The notes beneath the pieces were generated by a model, which saw nothing but the letters and a program-made list of their open reading frames with translations, did no database searches and had not been told where the DNA came from. Shown here piece by piece: positions 2,257-27,594 of a stretch of DNA of 35,610 nucleotides (the first letter of the stretch is position 1; the number at the start of each line of letters is the position of its first letter). Source of the stretch: Chloroflexota bacterium (GTDB lineage: Bacteria > Chloroflexota > Dehalococcoidia > UBA2247 > RBG-13-53-26); NCBI GenBank assembly GCA_016876035.1, contig VGOE01000021.1, forward strand, positions 1-35,610, written 5' to 3'. The translations under genes were made by a program, and so were the position numbers.

Positions 2257-3051
2257 ATGCAATACGGGCCATACGAACACCTCATTCTTGAAAAAAAAGG
2301 GGGGATAGCCAGGATTACCATCAACCGTCCGGATTCACTGAATGCTTTGCATCCCGACACCCACAGACAATTGCAGGATGTGCTCCAGAAGCTAGACTTG
2401 GATCCAGAAGTGAAGGTGATAATTATCACTGGCAAAGGCAGGGCCTTCTGCACCGGGGCAGACCTGAAGCACATAAGCACCCTGGTGGGGAAGCCAGCGG
2501 AGATAGTGGCCTATGGCCAACTCTTCCACGATACCAACTACCTCATTGAACACATGAACAAGGTGGTGATAGCCATGGTAAATGGTCTTTGCCTGGCTGG
2601 CGGTATCGAAGTGATGGAGGCCTGTGATCTGGCCTATGCCTCCGAGGATGCCCGGATAGGCGACCAGCATGCGGCCTTCGGACTCGTCCCCACGGGCGGC
2701 GGATCGCAACGGCTTCCCCGGCTGATACCGCTAAGAAAAGCAAAAGAGCTTCTCTTAACTGGTGACTGGCTAACAGCTAAAGAGGCGGAACAGTGGGGCT
2801 TGGTAAACAAGGCTGTGCCGGCGGATAAGCTGGAGGAAACAGTCATGGCGGTGGCCAACAAGCTGAAGGAACGAAGTCTCATGGCCTCCAAGTTCATTAA
2901 GTACGAGGTAAACCGGGGGATGCAGGTTGATCTGTATACTGGGGTGGAGCTGGAGAAGGCAGCTTCCATGGCCCACTTCCAGACGGAAGACTCTAAGGAA
3001 GGGATAGCGGCTTTCATGGAAAAGAGAAAGCCCAACTTCCCTGGAAGATGA
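2257..3051 (+). CDS. Enoyl-CoA hydratase/isomerase family protein (crotonase), copy 2
   Basis: A 264-aa paralogue of the preceding gene, co-linear over its whole length and clearly derived by tandem duplication. ATG at 2257 follows AAGGAGG with a 7-8 nt gap. CTGADL (residues 66-70) and NGLCLAGG supply the oxyanion hole, and E118 is the first catalytic Glu. The second position is again His (H138 in GDQHAAFG). Retention of that replacement in both copies argues that it is functional and not drift. The C-terminal tail MEKRKPxFPGR is shared by both copies. The two products may form a mixed oligomer or handle different chain types; this is inference. The gene ends about 70 bp before the isoleucyl-tRNA synthetase start region. 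Confidence 0.9.
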   Translation: MQYGPYEHLILEKKGGIARITINRPDSLNALHPDTHRQLQDVLQKLDLDPEVKVIIITGKGRAFCTGADLKHISTLVGKPAEIVAYGQLFHDTNYLIEHMNKVVIAMVNGLCLAGGIEVMEACDLAYASEDARIGDQHAAFGLVPTGGGSQRLPRLIPLRKAKELLLTGDWLTAKEAEQWGLVNKAVPADKLEETVMAVANKLKERSLMASKFIKYEVNRGMQVDLYTGVELEKAASMAHFQTEDSKEGIAAFMEKRKPNFPGR

Positions 3052-3087
3052 AGTTGACAAAGACGATCCTGGTTGATTAGATTGATG

Positions 3088-3123
3088 ATGAGTCCCTTTC
3101 CCTGGCCAGGGAGGGGGACTCAT
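3088..3123 (+). promoter_or_regulatory. Perfectly folding 18-bp hairpin covering the ileS start region
   Basis: ATGAGTCCCTTTCCCTGG (3088-3105) pairs with the adjacent bases 3106-3123 along all 18 positions in RNA, with two G-U pairs. The second arm contains GGAGGGGG and the first two bases of the ATG at 3122, so both would be buried. No T-run follows, so it is not a classical terminator. Confidence 0.5.
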
Positions 3124-6100
3124 GACATTAGGCCAAGAGGAGTGTATGTTCAAGCCGGTTAGCAGCAAGGTGAGCTTTCCTGAGATAGAAAAGGGAGTAT
3201 TGCGTTTCTGGAAGGAACAGCGTATCCTCCAGAAGACCACCCAGCTTCGCAGCGGCGCGCCTCAGTTTACCCTTTATGATGGGCCTCCTACCGTCAACGG
3301 TAACCCGGGTATTCATCACGTTCTCTCCCGGGTATACAAAGATGTTATTCCGCGCTACAAGACTATGAAGGGCTTCTGCGTTTTCCGTAAGGCAGGCTGG
3401 GATACCCACGGCCTGCCGGTGGAGCTGGAGGTGGAAAAGGAGCTGGGGTTCAGCAATAAGGCCCAAATCGAAGAGTACGGGGTCGGTCGGTTCAACGCCC
3501 GCTGCCGTGAAAACGTTCTCAAATACCTCAAAGGTTGGATAGAGCTTACCGAGCGCATAGGTTTCTGGCTGGACATGGATCATCCTTACATTACCTTCGA
3601 CAACAGCTATATCGAGTCCTGCTGGTGGATCATAAAGACGCTCTGGGACAGGGGCTTGATCTACCAGGGATACCGCGTGACGCCTCACTGCCCCCGCTGC
3701 GGCACCTCCCTCAGCTCCCATGAGGTAGCCCTGGGCTATGAGGAGGTCGAAGACCCGTCAATATACATTCGCTTCCGGCTGAGGCGTGACCTTCAGCCAG
3801 CCGAGGCCAGGGCGCTGCCCCTGCTGGGGTATGACTCTCAAAAGGGCCAGTGGAAAGGGGAAAGGCCCTCTATTCTGGCCTGGACTACCACTCCCTGGAC
3901 GCTGACGGGCAACGTGGCCCTGGCTGTAGCTCCTGAGGCTGACTACGTGCTGGTGCAGTCGCGAACCTCACAGGGAATCACAGAAAACCTTATTCTGGCG
4001 AAGGCCCTTCTTGACCAGGCCCTGGGTGCTGGGAACTGGGAAATAGTGGCGGAGTTTCCAGGCAGGGATCTGGCTGGCCTCCACTACGAGCGCCTCTACG
4101 AGCCGAAGGAGTCTTTCGTGGTCGGCGACCGGAAGGTGCTCCAGCACAACTGGGTGGTGACCGCCGATTTCGTCTCCATGGAAGATGGCACAGGGGTAGT
4201 GCACATCGCCCCTGCCTTCGGGGAAGAGGACTACGACTTGGGGAAGGCGGAAGATTTGCCCATGGTACAGAGCGTAGACCTGGATGGCAAGATGATACCT
4301 AATGATAAGCCCTGGGACGGCAGGTTTGTGAAAGAAGCCGATCCCATGATCCTGAAGGACCTGGAGCAGCAAAATCTCCTGCACCACCAGCAGACAATCA
4401 CCCACACCTATCCCTTCTGCTGGCGGTGCGATACGCCGCTACTCTACTATGCCAAACCGTCGTGGTACATCAAGACAACGGCGCTCAAGAAGGAACTCCT
4501 CTCCGGCAACGAGCAAATCAACTGGTATCCCGAATACATCAAGCACGGGCGATTCGGCGAGTGGCTGGAGAACAATGTGGACTGGGCCCTTTCCAGGGAG
4601 AGGTTCTGGGGAACTCCTTTGCCCATCTGGCGGTGTGAGCAATGTCATCAGCCAGAAGCCATAGGCAGTATCGCTGAGCTTCAGAGCCCGCCAGACCTGA
4701 AAGGAATGGCTGAGCCTCTCGATCTGCATCGCCCCTTTGTAGACCAGATAACCTTCCGGTGTTCGAAGTGCGGCGGGACGATGAAGCGTGTCGCTGAAGT
4801 ACTGGACGCCTGGTTTGATTCAGGAGCCATGCCTGTAGCCCAATTCCACTATCCTTTTGAAAACCAGCAGCAGTTCGACAAGAGCTTCCCGGCTGACTAC
4901 ATCTGTGAGGCGGTAGATCAGACCAGAGGCTGGTTCTATACTTTGCACGCCCTGTCCACCCTGCTGCACAAGAAGCCTTGCTTCAAGAATGTCATCTGCC
5001 TGGGACACATCCTGGACGCCAAAGGCGAAAAGATGAGCAAGGCAAAAGGAAACGTGGTTGACCCGTGGACGATCATCAATAATCAAGGAGCAGATGCCTT
5101 ACGCTGGTACATGTTCACTTCCACCCCAGCAGGCAATGTGAAACGCTTTTCCCGTGACCAGGTGACAGAGGTCTCACGGCGCTTCCTTTCCACTCTGTGG
5201 AATACCTATTCCTTCTTCGTACTATATGCCAACATTGACCGCTTTGATCCGGCCACAGCCCAGGTGCCTCAATACTCCTCTGACCTGGACCGATGGATCA
5301 CGTCTGAACTTAATCAGCTCATCCTCGACGTCGGCCACGAACTGGACAACTACAATCCCGCGGACGCCGGTAGGAGGATCGAGGAATTTGTGGAACGCCT
5401 CTCCAACTGGTACGTCAGGAGGAGCCGGCGACGCTTCTGGAAGAGCGAGAACGATGCCGACAAACTGTCCGCCTATTTCACCCTTTACCACTGCCTGGTC
5501 ACCTTGTCAGAGCTCCTGGCTCCCCTCACACCCTTCATCGCCGAGGAAATCTATCAGAACCTGGTACGATCGGTGAACCCACAGGCGGAGGAAAGCGTAC
5601 ACCTCTGCGCCTTCCCGCAGGCAGACCCGTCCCTGATAGACGAACTTCTGGATGCCAATACGCGGTTGGCCATGAAGGTCTGTAGCCTGGGGAGAGCCGC
5701 CCGTAGCAAAGCCGGTATCAAGGTGCGCCAGCCTCTGCCCGTGCTACTGGTCAAGACCAGATCGAACAGTGAACGGGACGGGCTGGAGAGAATCGCTTCT
5801 CAAATACTGGAGGAGCTCAACGTAAAACGAATGGAATTTGTCAAAGACGAGAGCGAGCTAGTTGATAAGCCAGGTTACTCCTTAGCCGCCGAGGGTGATC
5901 ATGTCGTGGCTCTATCTACAGAAGTCCCTAGCGAGCTCATAGAGGAAGGGCTGGCGCGGGAGGTAGTGCACCGCTTGCAGACGATGCGCCGCAGTGCTGG
6001 CTTTGATATTGCCGACTACATCATAACGCGTTACCAGGCAGAGCCGCCTCTCCTACAGGCTGTCCAAAACCAGTCCGATTACATCCAGCAGGAAACGTTG

Positions 6101-23599: not shown

Positions 23600-23965
23600 G
23601 AACGGAGAGCCTTTATTTGTCATTGCGAGGGGAGGCTGTCTGAGAACTTGCAAAAACGGGTAGCCTGGAGCAGATGCTCCAACCTTCCCTGACATTAGGG
23701 CAGGCTGTCCGAAATGTCATTCCGTACTTGATACGGAATCCAGGTGGGGTGGAGTAACTGGATTCCCGTCTGCGCGGGAATGACATCTTTATCCTTTTCC
23801 GACAGCCTCGACGGAGCTTAAGAGGTGGTTTATCAACGCCCCTATGTCATTGCGAGCTCGCCGCAGGCGAGCGTGGCAATCCCAGGGCGGTGGGGAGTTA
23901 ATGACACTACTAAACCTCCTTAATGATATTGCTTTCGCCTTCCCGCGGAAAGATAATGGACTCAA
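23600..23965. repeat. Gene-free nest of palindromic dispersed repeats
   Basis: At least four elements lie in 366 bases with no gene. TGGAGCA-GA-TGCTCCA is a hairpin at 23666-23681. A 105-bp element at 23703-23807 has 11-bp ends with one mismatch (GGCTGTCCGAA against GGCTGTCGGAA in complement) and internal TGTCATTCCG and CGGGAATGACA arms. TGTCATTGCGAG...GGCAATCC at 23845-23883 encloses GCTCGCC-GCA-GGCGAGC. A partial copy of that last type (GTCATTGCGAGG) is at 23619-23630. These look like REP/MITE-type repeats. Confidence 0.65.
23703..23807. repeat. 105-bp MITE-like element with terminal inverted repeats
   Basis: The near-perfect 11-bp terminal repeats enclose a second palindrome of TGTCATTCCG and CGGGAATGACA, plus the small hairpins TCCGTA/TACGGA and ATTCCCG/CGGGAAT. 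The element has no coding capacity and would fold on itself as RNA. Confidence 0.55.
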
Positions 23966-24481
23966 ATGCCCTCAATAACCGATCGCGCTGTGGAAATCCG
24001 TTTCTTGGTCGATAGTAACGCTGGCAAGCTCGCCCGATGGCTGAGAATGATGGGCTATGACGCCCTCTTCTTCAACAACATCGACGATTCGGTGCTGGTG
24101 GATATGGCGTTCAAAGAGGGAAGAGTGATTCTGACCAAGGACACCCAGATCGTAAGAAGACGGCTGGTCACCAACGGACAACTCAAGGTTATCCTTACCC
24201 AGAGCGATGACCCTAAAGAACAATTACGCCAGGTGGTGAAGGAACTGAAACTGGACTGCCGTCTCAAGCAGTTCACCCGCTGCCTGGAGTGCAATCAAAC
24301 CCTGGTGCCCCGGAGCAGAGAAGAGGTGAAGGAACTGGTGCCGCCCTATGTTTTCCGCACTCATGTTCAGTATATGCAGTGTCCCGCCTGTCTCCGGGTC
24401 TACTGGCGCGGCACACACTGGCAGCGCATGAAGAAGGAACTGGAGGCCTTCGCCCGTGATTACGCTGGAGAGCAAAAGTGA
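23966..24481 (+). CDS. Mut7-C RNase domain protein (PIN-like fold with zinc ribbon)
   Basis: This 171-aa protein matches the Mut7-C family of predicted RNases. Residues 11-75 show the PIN-like core: RFLVDSNAGKLARWLRMMGYDA with D16, then VILTKD with D59, the acidic residues expected to hold metal. The C-terminal half has a zinc ribbon with C106-x2-C109 and C139-x2-C142 (RCLECN, QCPAC), then YWRGTHWQRM, which is typical of the family. The likely role is RNA cleavage in tRNA or mRNA turnover, but no target is known. It stands alone between repeat-rich DNA and the unknown cassette. Confidence 0.85.
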   Translation: MPSITDRAVEIRFLVDSNAGKLARWLRMMGYDALFFNNIDDSVLVDMAFKEGRVILTKDTQIVRRRLVTNGQLKVILTQSDDPKEQLRQVVKELKLDCRLKQFTRCLECNQTLVPRSREEVKELVPPYVFRTHVQYMQCPACLRVYWRGTHWQRMKKELEAFARDYAGEQK

Positions 24482-24524
24482 GCTTCACAGGGGTTGTGTG
24501 CCAGGCGCAATAGGCCAATGTAGG

Positions 24525-24544
24525 GACAGACCTTCAGGTCTGTC
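24525..24544. repeat. Perfect palindromic hairpin GACAGACCT-TC-AGGTCTGTC
   Basis: A 9-bp perfect stem with a 2-nt loop lies 44 bp after the Mut7-C stop. No T-run follows, so it is more likely a dispersed palindromic repeat than a terminator, though it could still stabilise the mRNA end. Confidence 0.5.
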
Positions 24545-24669
24545 TCCACCCAAGGGACTTCTCGGACAGGTGTATAATAGGTCGTCCCAGGACAAGTGAA
24601 CCCCACTCATATTATGTGATTGTCTGACCGACGAGGAGCTATGATACAAGCAATTAAGAAGTCTCGGAC

Positions 24670-24765
24670 ATGGTGCGAGATATTGATAGAATTAGAGCAT
24701 TGTGTCATAATTTGCCACAGTATGCTAGATTCATGAGTCTGAGCTTGTGGGAGACATCAAGATGA
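24670..24765 (+). CDS. Possible 31-aa leader peptide of the unknown cassette
   Basis: A short frame starts with ATG at 24670 and ends with TGA at 24763-24765, which overlaps the ATG of the next gene (ATGA). The product is charged at the N-terminus (MVRDIDRIRALCHNLPQYA) and reads like a real protein fragment. There is no clear ribosome site before it. It may be a coupled leader, or the tail of a larger decayed gene. A rival 31-codon frame at 24641-24736 has a better ribosome site (GAGGAG) but no overlap. Confidence 0.25.
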   Translation: MVRDIDRIRALCHNLPQYARFMSLSLWETSR

Positions 24766-25364
24766 GGCTTCCAACCACAGCAAATGTCGTTATCCTTGCC
24801 TCAAACTACAATCCGTCCATTGTGTCTAGGGAATGGCTGCATCGGAAAGGAGTGTTTACCGAGACAGTAAAAAACTTTGTCTTTACCCCAGTATTCTCCC
24901 TGGTGGAGAATGAGCAATGCAGTCTCACCGTCGATGAGGCTAGGTTGCAGTACACGGTGAAGACGGTGACGCAAGAAAACTTGGCTTTGTTGGAACTTAT
25001 TCCCCGACGTTTTGTGGAGGCTCTCCCTGAAACTCCTTACAAGGCTCTGGGCTTCAACTACATCTATGTGGTTCCTGAAGAGAAGTGCAACCTCGAGAGC
25101 CTACTATCGCCGAAGCGGCGCCGACTGGCCCAATTGCTATCGCCATCCTACCAGTTAGGTATAACGGCAGTGTTCGAATTCCACCAGTTCATCGTGCACT
25201 TGACAATTTCGCCTTCGTTTGGCAAGGCCAAACAGACCGGAATCAGTCTAAACTTCCATGCAGATGTACAGCAGACAAGTGATATCGTGAGTAGGTTGGC
25301 CTTGCACGCCGAAACGGTCAAGAAAGCCGAGTCGGTTGTTCAGGGGGTTTGCACCAATGGTTAA
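24762..25364 (+). CDS. Unknown protein, first large gene of a small accessory cassette
   Basis: A 200-aa soluble protein that I do not recognise. ATG at 24762 is preferred over the GTG at 24747 because GGGAG lies 8 nt upstream. The sequence alternates beta-type and helical stretches: ANVVILASNYNPSI, NFVFTPVFSLVENEQCSLTVDEARLQYTV, then ALLELIPRRFVEALPETPYKALGFNYIYVV, and later AVFEFHQFIVHLTI. The middle faintly recalls TIGR04255-type proteins, but this is only a visual impression. It has no signal peptide or membrane segment. The end overlaps the next gene by 8 nt (ATGGTTAA), so the two are translationally coupled. Codon use looks less GC-rich at third positions than in the housekeeping genes, hinting at an accessory origin. 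Confidence 0.7.
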   Translation: MRLPTTANVVILASNYNPSIVSREWLHRKGVFTETVKNFVFTPVFSLVENEQCSLTVDEARLQYTVKTVTQENLALLELIPRRFVEALPETPYKALGFNYIYVVPEEKCNLESLLSPKRRRLAQLLSPSYQLGITAVFEFHQFIVHLTISPSFGKAKQTGISLNFHADVQQTSDIVSRLALHAETVKKAESVVQGVCTNG

Positions 25365-25911
25365 GGAGAAGTTTGGTGTGTCTACCCACGGAAAAAGCGA
25401 GCTGGCGTCGATACGCGCGTTGTTTTCTCCCGCACAAACGCAGCGATACCGTATCGATACATTAGCTGGCGACCCAATTATGGAGTTTGGCATGCAGGCT
25501 GAACCGACGGGAACGATTTCCGAAGAAGCTCTGAGGTTAACAGTGCTGCTTGCCTGCTCCGGCGCAATCTCAGCACAGCGGGATTGGAGAGAGAGCAGTC
25601 TTATCAGTCAACTCGATGCCGAGAACACGTCACTCAGGGTTGAGAATAGGCTCTTGCAACAGAGGCTTGAAATGATCGAGCAGCGGTTGGCGAATCTGGA
25701 GGCCTCGATGCCCAAGGAACACGTTGTCATGCTTAGAGAGATCACGGAACAACAGGCTAGGCAAGAGATACGCCAGCTATTTGCCGGTGGCGAGACGCTG
25801 TATTATTCAGATATTGCAGAAAGGCTTGGGCTTCGACTAGATCTCGTCGTGAGGATTTGCCAGGAATTGCAGGATGCAGGGGAGATAGAAGTCGATGGCA
25901 AAAGAGTATAA
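25357..25911 (+). CDS. Coiled-coil protein with C-terminal winged helix
   Basis: This 184-aa protein starts at ATG 25357, which overlaps the end of the previous gene; GGGGG precedes it by 9 nt. The N-terminal ~85 residues are of unknown fold. Residues ~88-120 form a heptad-patterned coiled coil (LISQLDAENTSLRVENRLLQ, then RLEMIEQRLANLEASM). The last ~45 residues look like a winged helix-turn-helix (YYSDIAERLGLRLDLVVRICQELQDAGEIEVDGK). A dimeric DNA-binding regulator or adaptor is the natural reading. An earlier in-frame ATG at 25336 would lie deeper inside the previous gene. The family is not recognised. Confidence 0.7.
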   Translation: MVKEKFGVSTHGKSELASIRALFSPAQTQRYRIDTLAGDPIMEFGMQAEPTGTISEEALRLTVLLACSGAISAQRDWRESSLISQLDAENTSLRVENRLLQQRLEMIEQRLANLEASMPKEHVVMLREITEQQARQEIRQLFAGGETLYYSDIAERLGLRLDLVVRICQELQDAGEIEVDGKRV

Positions 25912-26092
25912 TGATGCAGGTGATGCATTAAGAGGGGAGCGTATCGCAGTCGAAGCGCGGGACATTGACAAGATCCGCTACAAAGAAGGGGGATCTGGTA
26001 AACACGGAATACAATTCACAAAACTGAGGGACTCAGCCTACTGTGTCATTGAGATACCTTTAAAGGCTGTAAGGGAAAGGAAGTCGAAGTGA
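25895..26092 (+). CDS. 65-aa protein, third gene of the accessory cassette
   Basis: A small basic, hydrophilic protein. ATG at 25895 lies inside the end of the previous gene (17-nt overlap) with GGGGAG 10 nt upstream. The product has an alternating pattern (IAVEARDIDKIRY, then AYCVIEIPLKAVRERKSK) that suggests one small beta-sheet. No known motif is seen. Its stop overlaps the GTG of the next short frame (GTGA). It belongs to the same coupled cassette; its function is unknown. Confidence 0.6.
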   Translation: MAKEYNDAGDALRGERIAVEARDIDKIRYKEGGSGKHGIQFTKLRDSAYCVIEIPLKAVRERKSK

Positions 26093-26316
26093 CGCGTAGT
26101 AAATCGGACTCGAAGATCTTCGCCCAAATGTACGCAAAACAGCCAACACCGGAGATCCTGTTCTTAAATTAGCCTCCATATTTCATTGAGGGATATTTCC
26201 CCAGCCCCGACACAATCACAGAAGCGCGAGCCAGCTTTTTCGAACTCGCCGGCAGGACATTGATCAAAAGGAGGGAAAGGGCTCGACCAACCAATTTCGA
26301 CCTGCCAGCGACGTAA
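26089..26316 (+). pseudogene. Short gene with in-frame TAG (75 codons if read through)
   Basis: GTG at 26089 overlaps the previous stop (GTGA) and has AGGAAG about 5 nt upstream. The frame runs 27 codons to TAG at 26170-26172, then stays open for 47 more codons to TAA at 26314-26316. The part after the TAG reads like protein (PPYFIEGYFPSPDTITEARA, then FFELAGRTLIKRRERARP). The full product would be a 75-aa basic protein. It could be a gene broken by a nonsense mutation, a genuine 27-aa peptide followed by chance-open sequence, or readthrough. The CCA-adding enzyme starts 30 nt later. Confidence 0.35.
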
Positions 26317-26346
26317 CTATGACAATAGTATGTAGGTCTCAGAAAG

Positions 26347-27594
26347 ATGGCCAGTAATCTAGCCTCCCAGCTCAATCAGCGTCTCTCTCCGGAGATCAGG
26401 CAACTGCTCCGCATAGCAGGTGAAATGGCTCTGGAACGGGGGCAGGGTCTATACTTGGTGGGCGGGGTGGTGCGTGACCTTCTTCTGGAGCGGGCGAACC
26501 TCGACCTGGACCTGGTGGTGGAAAGAGATGCCCCACAGCTCGCCAGCCTGCTGGCGGACAGGATAGGCGGGAAGGTGGTCATTCACCAGCGCTTCGGCAC
26601 CGCCAAACTTCGCCATCAGAATCTGACTATTGACCTGGCGACAGCGCGCGCCGAGACCTACTCCCATCCTGGTGCTTTGCCCACCGTGCAGCCTGGCTCC
26701 ATCACCGATGACCTGGCCAGGCGCGATTTCACTATCAATGCTATGGCTATCCGCCTCGACCCGGACAACTTCGGCCAACTGGTCGATCCCTTCCAGGGAG
26801 AAAAGGATCTGGCACATAAGCTCATCCGTGTCCTTCACCCGAGAAGTTTCATCGACGACGCCACCCGTATGTTGCGGGCTGTCCGCTATGAGCAAAGGTT
26901 CGACTTTCGATTGGAGGCGACTACAGAGGAGTTGTTAAAGCGAGACCTGTCCATGATTCACACTATCAGCGGCGACAGGATACGGCACGAGCTGGAACTG
27001 ATCTTCAAGGAAGCACGTCCCGAGAAACCGCTGCGGCGGGCCGCAGAGCTAGGTCTGCTCCAGGAAATACATCCCGCCCTCAAAGGCAACGGGTGGATAA
27101 CGAAGGCCTTTGAGCAGGCCAGATCAACCGCTAACCCGCCATCCCTGGGTCTCTATCTCTCCCTCGCCGTTCACCACTTCAGCCAGGACGAGGCCGAAGA
27201 CTTCATCATCAATTTGAACATACCGAAGGCAACAGCACGGGTTATCCAGGATACCATCGGCCTCAAGGAAAATCTGGCCTCCCTGGAAGCGCCTCAGTTA
27301 TCACCCAGCGCTATCTATCGCCTCCTCCAAGACTATTCGCCGACATCAATTTCGGCCTGGGCCATCGCTTCCGAATCGCCCCTGATTCAACACAGACTCC
27401 ACTTATATCTTGATAAACTACGTTATGTAAAGTCATCGCTCCACGGCCAGGACTTGCAAGATATGGGCTTACCGCCCGGCCCACGAATGGGTCAAATGCT
27501 GAAGGCGCTGCATGAAGCCAAGCTTGACCAGAAAGTCAAGACCCGCGCGGAGGAAGTAGCCCTGGTGCGTCGCTGGTTTCTACAGGAGGAATGA
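26347..27594 (+). CDS. CCA-adding enzyme/poly(A) polymerase-type nucleotidyltransferase
   Basis: This 415-aa class II nucleotidyltransferase would add CCA, or part of it, to tRNA 3' ends. YLVGGVVRDLLL (residues 37-48) is the GG/R motif, and NLDLDLVV carries the catalytic D53 and D55. RRDFTINAMAIRLDP, the LIRVLHPRSFIDDATRMLRAVRYEQRF segment and GDRIRHELELIF are the further conserved motifs of the class. The C-terminal part is helical without an HD domain signature. In organisms with two such enzymes, the work is split between CC-adding and A-adding forms; sequence alone does not separate them here. ATG at 26347 has no strong ribosome site. Confidence 0.9.
   Translation: MASNLASQLNQRLSPEIRQLLRIAGEMALERGQGLYLVGGVVRDLLLERANLDLDLVVERDAPQLASLLADRIGGKVVIHQRFGTAKLRHQNLTIDLATARAETYSHPGALPTVQPGSITDDLARRDFTINAMAIRLDPDNFGQLVDPFQGEKDLAHKLIRVLHPRSFIDDATRMLRAVRYEQRFDFRLEATTEELLKRDLSMIHTISGDRIRHELELIFKEARPEKPLRRAAELGLLQEIHPALKGNGWITKAFEQARSTANPPSLGLYLSLAVHHFSQDEAEDFIINLNIPKATARVIQDTIGLKENLASLEAPQLSPSAIYRLLQDYSPTSISAWAIASESPLIQHRLHLYLDKLRYVKSSLHGQDLQDMGLPPGPRMGQMLKALHEAKLDQKVKTRAEEVALVRRWFLQEE

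Follow-up and report, generated by a model that had tools for sequence, protein, structure and literature searches.

A three-gene cassette in a Chloroflexota bacterium and its relatives suggests a toxin-antitoxin-like module with one constant protein and exchangeable gene pairs

What does a run of small, overlapping genes encode when it lies between housekeeping genes and resembles no known family? We asked this of a locus in a Chloroflexota bacterium of the class Dehalococcoidia, using as our window the whole stretch of 35,610 nucleotides that forms contig C21 of a 2.53 Mb assembly. The original prediction described an acquired cassette of four or five coupled frames overlapping one another by 4-17 nt, and offered a defence, toxin-antitoxin or regulatory role as inference only. 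The features of the locus, in window coordinates, are as follows:

23966-24481, + strand, flanking Mut7-C RNase-domain gene (PF01927, E 2.1e-48)
24482-26346, no strand, inserted stretch, lacking between these flanking genes in four relatives of the family
24520-24549, no strand, inverted repeat upstream of the module (14-nt arms, 86% complementary)
24683-24711, + strand, promoter-like site TTGATA-17-CATAAT (consensus scan only)
24762-25364, + strand, g1, 200 aa, motif NPSIxSxxWL, predicted two-repeat TBP-like fold
25357-25911, + strand, g2, 184 aa, putative antitoxin-like bridging protein
about 25357-25600, + strand, N-terminal extension of g2
about 25600-25710, + strand, coiled coil of g2
about 25747-25899, + strand, C-terminal winged-helix-like domain of g2
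25895-26092, + strand, g3, 65 aa, candidate effector (toxin-like)
26347-27594, + strand, flanking CCA/poly(A) polymerase-type nucleotidyltransferase gene (PF01743, E 1.8e-29)

Each of g1, g2 and g3 has homologues with conserved residues, and close pairs of related operons gave dN/dS values of 0.12-0.59, which indicate purifying selection. Thus, the coding of the three frames is beyond chance. The original prediction had named absence of co-occurrence or of codon-level selection as grounds for dropping the idea of a system; the three genes co-occur and are under selection. The frames overlap by 8 nt between g1 and g2 (ATGGTTAA) and by 17 nt between g2 and g3, and a purine-rich Shine-Dalgarno-like stretch precedes each of the three starts, in agreement with the predicted ribosome sites. 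The two other frames of the predicted cassette, a 31-aa frame (24641-24736) and an interrupted frame (26089-26316, + strand), had no homologue in any fetched locus and were rejected as parts of the cassette; the interrupted frame also had no match in Pfam, NCBIfam, PADLOC or PHROGs, and a search of the genome for a second copy of the stretch 26093-26340 found none. The cassette is therefore a real and conserved one of three genes, rather than four or five, and g1, g2 and g3 very probably form one functional module. The promoter-like site lies 50 nt upstream of g1 and has TG before its second hexamer; the consensus scan found 2 such sites against 1.3 expected. As the original prediction had suspected, none of the cassette proteins had a match above cut-off in Pfam, NCBIfam, PADLOC or PHROGs.

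The surroundings of the cassette indicate how it came to lie where it does. The Mut7-C and CCA/poly(A) polymerase genes adjoin in L108, L109, L112 and L116, four genomes from the same family, with a spacing from about 100 nt down to an overlap, whereas in the window they are 1865 bp apart. Since these relatives have the flanking genes adjacent and no cassette, the cassette is an insertion here. Related operons have other surroundings: in L028 and L029 the operon is flanked by gyrB-like and hisS-like genes, in L030 it follows a DnaC-like gene, and in L031 a CCA-polymerase-like gene precedes it, all of these neighbours being named by eye. Such co-occurrence in different neighbourhoods bears out the predicted acquired module of co-transcribed genes, and by its distribution among the compared genomes the cassette is best described as a small acquired module. 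The expected palindromic flank is present upstream (24520-24549), and housekeeping genes flank the cassette on both sides rather than on one only. Palindromic, repeat-like intergenic sequences occur on this upstream flank at 23850-23900 and 24520-24549 (CATTGCGAGCTCGCCGCAGGCGAG... and GTAGGGACAGACCT/AGGTCTGTCTCCAC).

The first gene, g1, encodes the constant protein of the system. It matched no Pfam or NCBIfam family at E up to 1, and its profile matched no PDB sequence at E up to 5. The AF2 model of g1 (pLDDT 92.7, pTM 0.88) has two similar halves, each roughly strand-helix-strands-helix. In fold comparisons, AdoMetDC (best, Z 8.9), TBP and guanidino kinases (both Z about 7) ranked first among the matches listed. 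The TBP match extends over 148 residues with an rmsd of 5.2 A, and a Z below 8 can mean just a common arrangement. We took the matches to AdoMetDC, TBP and guanidino kinases as such common arrangements and not as kin of g1. SecB was rejected as the identity of g1 for want of sequence support, and it is not among the matches listed. In the model, g1 is predicted to be a two-repeat, saddle-like arrangement, which we call 'TBP-like' in part after the general features of that fold, a label that implies no kinship.

Homologues of g1 were found at 21 loci on genome contigs, from Chloroflexota, Omnitrophota, Thermodesulfobacteriota, Methylomirabilota and several archaeal groups including methanogen/ANME archaea, as well as on three IMG/VR contigs and one Picosynechococcus plasmid. 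The most divergent members are backed by profile searches, the weakest being L127 (E 3e-7, hhalign 74%). The gene is patchily distributed, occurring in 5 of the 393 genomes of the window's own class, 7 of 149 in the class of a Syntrophaceae host and 10 of 58 in the class of a Methanophagales host. Single-sequence scans of viral contigs with the g1 and g2 of the window found no relatives, and tblastn with this g1 found none in plasmids and phages, the plasmid being reached only with a more distant g1. That plasmid (L072, Picosynechococcus sp. PCC 8807, NZ_CP016487.1) carries a g1-g2-g3 operon annotated as three 'hypothetical proteins', located between the type I restriction genes for subunits R and S (hsdR and hsdS), with HepT/nucleotidyltransferase and VapC genes close by.

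The second protein, g2, had been described as a coiled-coil protein with a winged helix in the middle. The coiled coil stands. The winged helix, which HMM searches alone support weakly (best Pfam E 0.016, below cut-off), lies C-terminal of the coiled coil, at about residues 131-181, and not in the middle. The N part of g2 is the more variable (pairwise identity 33%, against 62% for the C part). Homologues of g2 occur in 10 of the 393 genomes of the window's class, and its profile found relatives in 30 of 150 genomes of Methanosarcinia (the GTDB class of Methanohalophilus), at up to seven places per genome, and none on viral contigs. The archaeal g2 proteins that we read have a common C-terminal domain, and most carry an N-terminal ribbon-helix-helix domain, as in L100, where the antitoxin-type PF17723 (RHH_8) is above cut-off (E 7.1e-7).

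A g3 profile built from Chloroflexota alone found an adjacent g3 beside most archaeal g2 genes; in L103 the two genes are 1.2 kb apart, and no g3 was found in L105 and L016 or at the marginal g2 matches L051 and L052. Because this profile recovers the neighbours of archaeal g2 genes, the pairing of g2 with g3 is conserved in both bacteria and archaea. In Chloroflexota the pair occurs both with g1 (the window and L028-L031) and without it (L010, L013, L014 and L015). A run of N affects the upstream gene of L023. The order g1-g2-g3 recurs in other Dehalococcoidia and, in more divergent form, in one archaeon. Type II systems are recognised by two small, overlapping genes that stay together in unrelated genomes, as g2 and g3 do, and judged from gene order and domains the make-up of g2-g3 is that of a type II toxin-antitoxin pair. 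At two loci of the class Methanosarcinia (L098:748-1434 and L099:734-1384), another protein of 216-228 aa occupies the position of g1 before g2-g3. These two proteins are 38% identical to each other and have no sequence similarity to g1, and as distant g1 members they were rejected on sequence (hhalign probability 0.4%); perhaps they represent a second, unrelated accessory protein for the pair.

Neither a fold nor a catalytic motif was recognised in the window's g3, and its model, built from 5 sequences, reached a pLDDT of 42 and gave no fold. It could be a regulator rather than a toxin. Behind other g1 genes, different proteins take its place. Wherever the contig allows, the g1 operons that we read have g1, g2 and g3 in this order on the same strand, and g1 and g2 overlap by 8, 4 or 11 nt in 20 of 22 operons (13, 5 and 2 operons, respectively). 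The third gene encodes a HEPN protein in some operons: a profile of seven such g3 proteins matched the PDB HEPN protein 9xbd (E 1.4e-7), in keeping with homology to HEPN-domain proteins with the conserved R..DY motif, Pfam HEPN models were matched below cut-off only, and L069, L119, L186 and L187 were assigned by eye. Others encode a metallo-beta-lactamase-fold protein (PF00753, over cut-off) or a clan AA protease (TIGR03698 at E 3.8e-10, short of the cut-off for that model) whose partner g2 carries DUF5678. A further type in L047, L071 and L072 was grouped by eye. The PIN-like assignment in L127 is weak, its two halves, searched apart and unjoined, each matching its proper part of the PIN model (E 0.26 and 0.034). 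A HicA-like g3 in archaeal relatives is also weak (hhalign against 18 sequences of the class, probability 13%, E 0.002, controls 0.1-0.2%, with at least one of the 18 sequences apparently misextracted) and had no Pfam match.

The g1 tree, which has some very long terminal branches, calls for at least 11 changes of effector type, where 6 would be the fewest possible; the effector class of some loci and several neighbours were read by eye. The invariant residues of g1 in the alignment are kept across all effector types. This placing of g1 before varied toxin-like pairs, compared by sequence, suggests an undescribed control of interchangeable toxin-antitoxin modules. A search confined to the open-access literature found nothing relevant on such a three-gene system, on DUF5678 or on TIGR04255. 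Several single loci add to the picture. One genome (G745, with L037, L092 and L093) carries three g1 operons whose third genes all differ, encoding a clan AA protease, an unassigned 161-aa protein and a metallo-beta-lactamase-fold protein. In L127, where g1 is very divergent, the PIN-like third gene (1938-2291 and 4174-4377) is split by a transposase-like gene (2415-4064). In many Dehalococcoidia (L132-L158), DUF5678 proteins of about 64-120 aa directly precede a D[ST]G aspartic-protease-like gene as a conserved two-gene pair.

If g1 acts on such pairs, its point of contact may be the N-terminus of g2. Window-type g2 proteins are 166-184 aa long with g1 and 94-128 aa without it (p 0.0097, from small samples uncorrected for descent). 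The same holds for DUF5678-type g2 proteins, at 148-229 aa with g1 and mostly 64-119 aa without it (p 0.007, again from small samples uncorrected for descent); two long g1-less DUF5678 frames of 253 and 342 aa are exceptions and are possibly extended into other sequence. The g1-less DUF5678 genes, together with an extra g1 operon (L144), came from a search made without g1. One pair of loci, L035 and L185, points to the same segment: their g1 proteins are sisters (75% identity, support 100/100), but their effectors differ. The DNA of the two loci is about 85% identical to the end of g1, 61-67% identical across roughly the first 240 nt of g2, and no more alike than by chance from there on; the alignment of the two g2 N-terminal segments beats all 300 shuffles. 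The g2 and g3 of L185 are distant from those of the window (E 5e-11 and 6e-5 in a two-sequence test). An exchange point inside g2, seen in this one pair of loci, is what is expected if g2 is tied to g1 by its N-terminus and to g3 by its C-terminus. On these grounds, we lean slightly towards the view that g1 conditions g2 via the g2 N-terminus.

The module as a whole is probably toxin-antitoxin-like, and the guess of such a role in the original prediction now has comparative evidence behind it. The best explanation, which we hold with moderate confidence, is a tripartite toxin-antitoxin-like module of a constant g1 and an exchangeable g2-g3 pair. In such a module, g3 would be the toxin-like effector, and the conserved C-terminal domain of g2 would neutralize it. 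As part of a DNA-binding-type protein, g2 would probably also autoregulate the operon. The two-repeat TBP-like g1 would hold the N-terminal extension of g2 as a chaperone-like conditioner, such that g2, binding both partners, functions only as long as g1 stays attached; were g1 lost or the extension let go, through stress or an invader, g3 would be freed. In other organisms, one g1 family would serve several unrelated effector types. The adaptor role first suggested for the coiled-coil/winged-helix protein fits this scheme well.

The module could also serve defence, which we consider unlikely though a serious possibility. In one such reading, itself unlikely, the system would be of an abortive-infection type, with g1 sensing an invader product, altering its hold on g2 and so activating the encoded effector. 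The plasmid operon between annotated hsdR and hsdS, the HsdM-like, HsdR-like or methylase-like neighbours in L043, L094 and L044 (by eye), and the g1 copies on IMG/VR contigs are consistent with this; nuclease and protease effectors are found in other defence systems, the invariant residues of g1 across all effector types are as for a common ligand, and CmdTAC, a system of the toxin-antitoxin-chaperone (TAC) type, is reported to be antiviral (PMC11618068). However, the cassette proteins had no PADLOC match, the neighbours in the window itself are housekeeping genes, and the context at most loci was judged by eye with no background rate. Metallo-beta-lactamase-fold proteins and proteases are not toxins of the classical kind, and as partners they would suit a mobile three-protein enzyme or regulatory complex outside the toxin-antitoxin world, with g3-type proteins as interchangeable catalytic subunits in cell metabolism. 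We find this improbable, since the patchy distribution (5 of 393 class genomes), the up to 7 g2 places per genome, the antitoxin-type g2 N-termini, the HEPN and PIN-like partners and the PIN-like copy broken by a transposase gene have the look of addiction or defence modules.

Could g1 instead be a separate, DNA-binding (TBP-like) regulator of the operon of a two-gene toxin-antitoxin pair, with no direct contact with g2? In favour, the g1 model has TBP as one of its structural matches (Z about 7, 148 residues), and g1 comes first in the operon. The weakness of that match, already noted for its rmsd and a Z that may reflect mere common arrangement, makes this very improbable, and such a regulator would leave unexplained both the g1-linked extension of g2 and the common g1 and g2 N-terminus of L035 and L185.

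Returning to the tripartite reading, a bolder form of it can be put forward tentatively. A TBP-like-fold protein unrelated to SecB might condition exchangeable antitoxins via a graftable N-terminal segment, an undescribed control in bacteria and archaea that would bring nucleases, proteases and metallo-hydrolases under a single switch. Its use would probably be in defence, and the 65-aa g3 would be a new family of toxins. TAC modules, compared below, show that a chaperone can render an antitoxin conditional. If g1, an unrelated protein found in bacteria and archaea with unrelated effectors, acts likewise, conditional antitoxins have evolved more than once. In that case, a g1 with its matching g2 N-terminus would make up a portable switch, for which a trigger can be looked for, and g1, the DUF5678 partners and the 65-aa g3, all families of unknown function, would gain a lead to their function.

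Among known systems, g2-g3 alone resembles type II pairs with an RHH antitoxin (PF17723, RHH_8, as in archaeal g2), being two small overlapping genes; in the archaeal pair, g2 has a DNA-binding domain, g3 is 57-73 aa and many copies occur per genome (Methanosarcinia). In the window, a coiled coil and an extension replace the RHH domain and a third gene is added. DUF5678 (PF18929) paired with a clan AA aspartic protease (TIGR03698-like) and standing alone is frequently met in the class; with g1, the DUF5678 protein is extended, in parallel to the module of the window, although the effector and the g2 domain are different. In the logic of its organization, the cassette family resembles TAC, a SecB-like chaperone with HigBA, MqsRA or HicAB. 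In TAC, the SecB-like chaperone binds a C-terminal addiction sequence of the antitoxin that is absent from chaperone-independent antitoxins, and the chaperone/addiction-sequence pair is transferable to other toxin-antitoxin families (PMC5105189). The TAC-type system CmdTAC is reported to have a role in antiviral defence (PMC11618068). Both TAC and the cassette family combine a constant third protein with exchangeable toxin-antitoxin families; in both, the antitoxin, putative in the cassette family, has an extension that goes with the third protein and is missing from stand-alone pairs, and the extension seems to travel with the third protein. Unlike TAC, g1 has no detectable SecB similarity and is the first gene of the operon, the g2 extension is N-terminal rather than C-terminal, the effectors of the g1 family include HEPN, protease and metallo-beta-lactamase-fold proteins, and the family also occurs in archaea. 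Thus, with an accessory protein that is not SecB by sequence and an extension that is N-terminal, the cassette is not a member of TAC; by analogy, it may nevertheless work like one.
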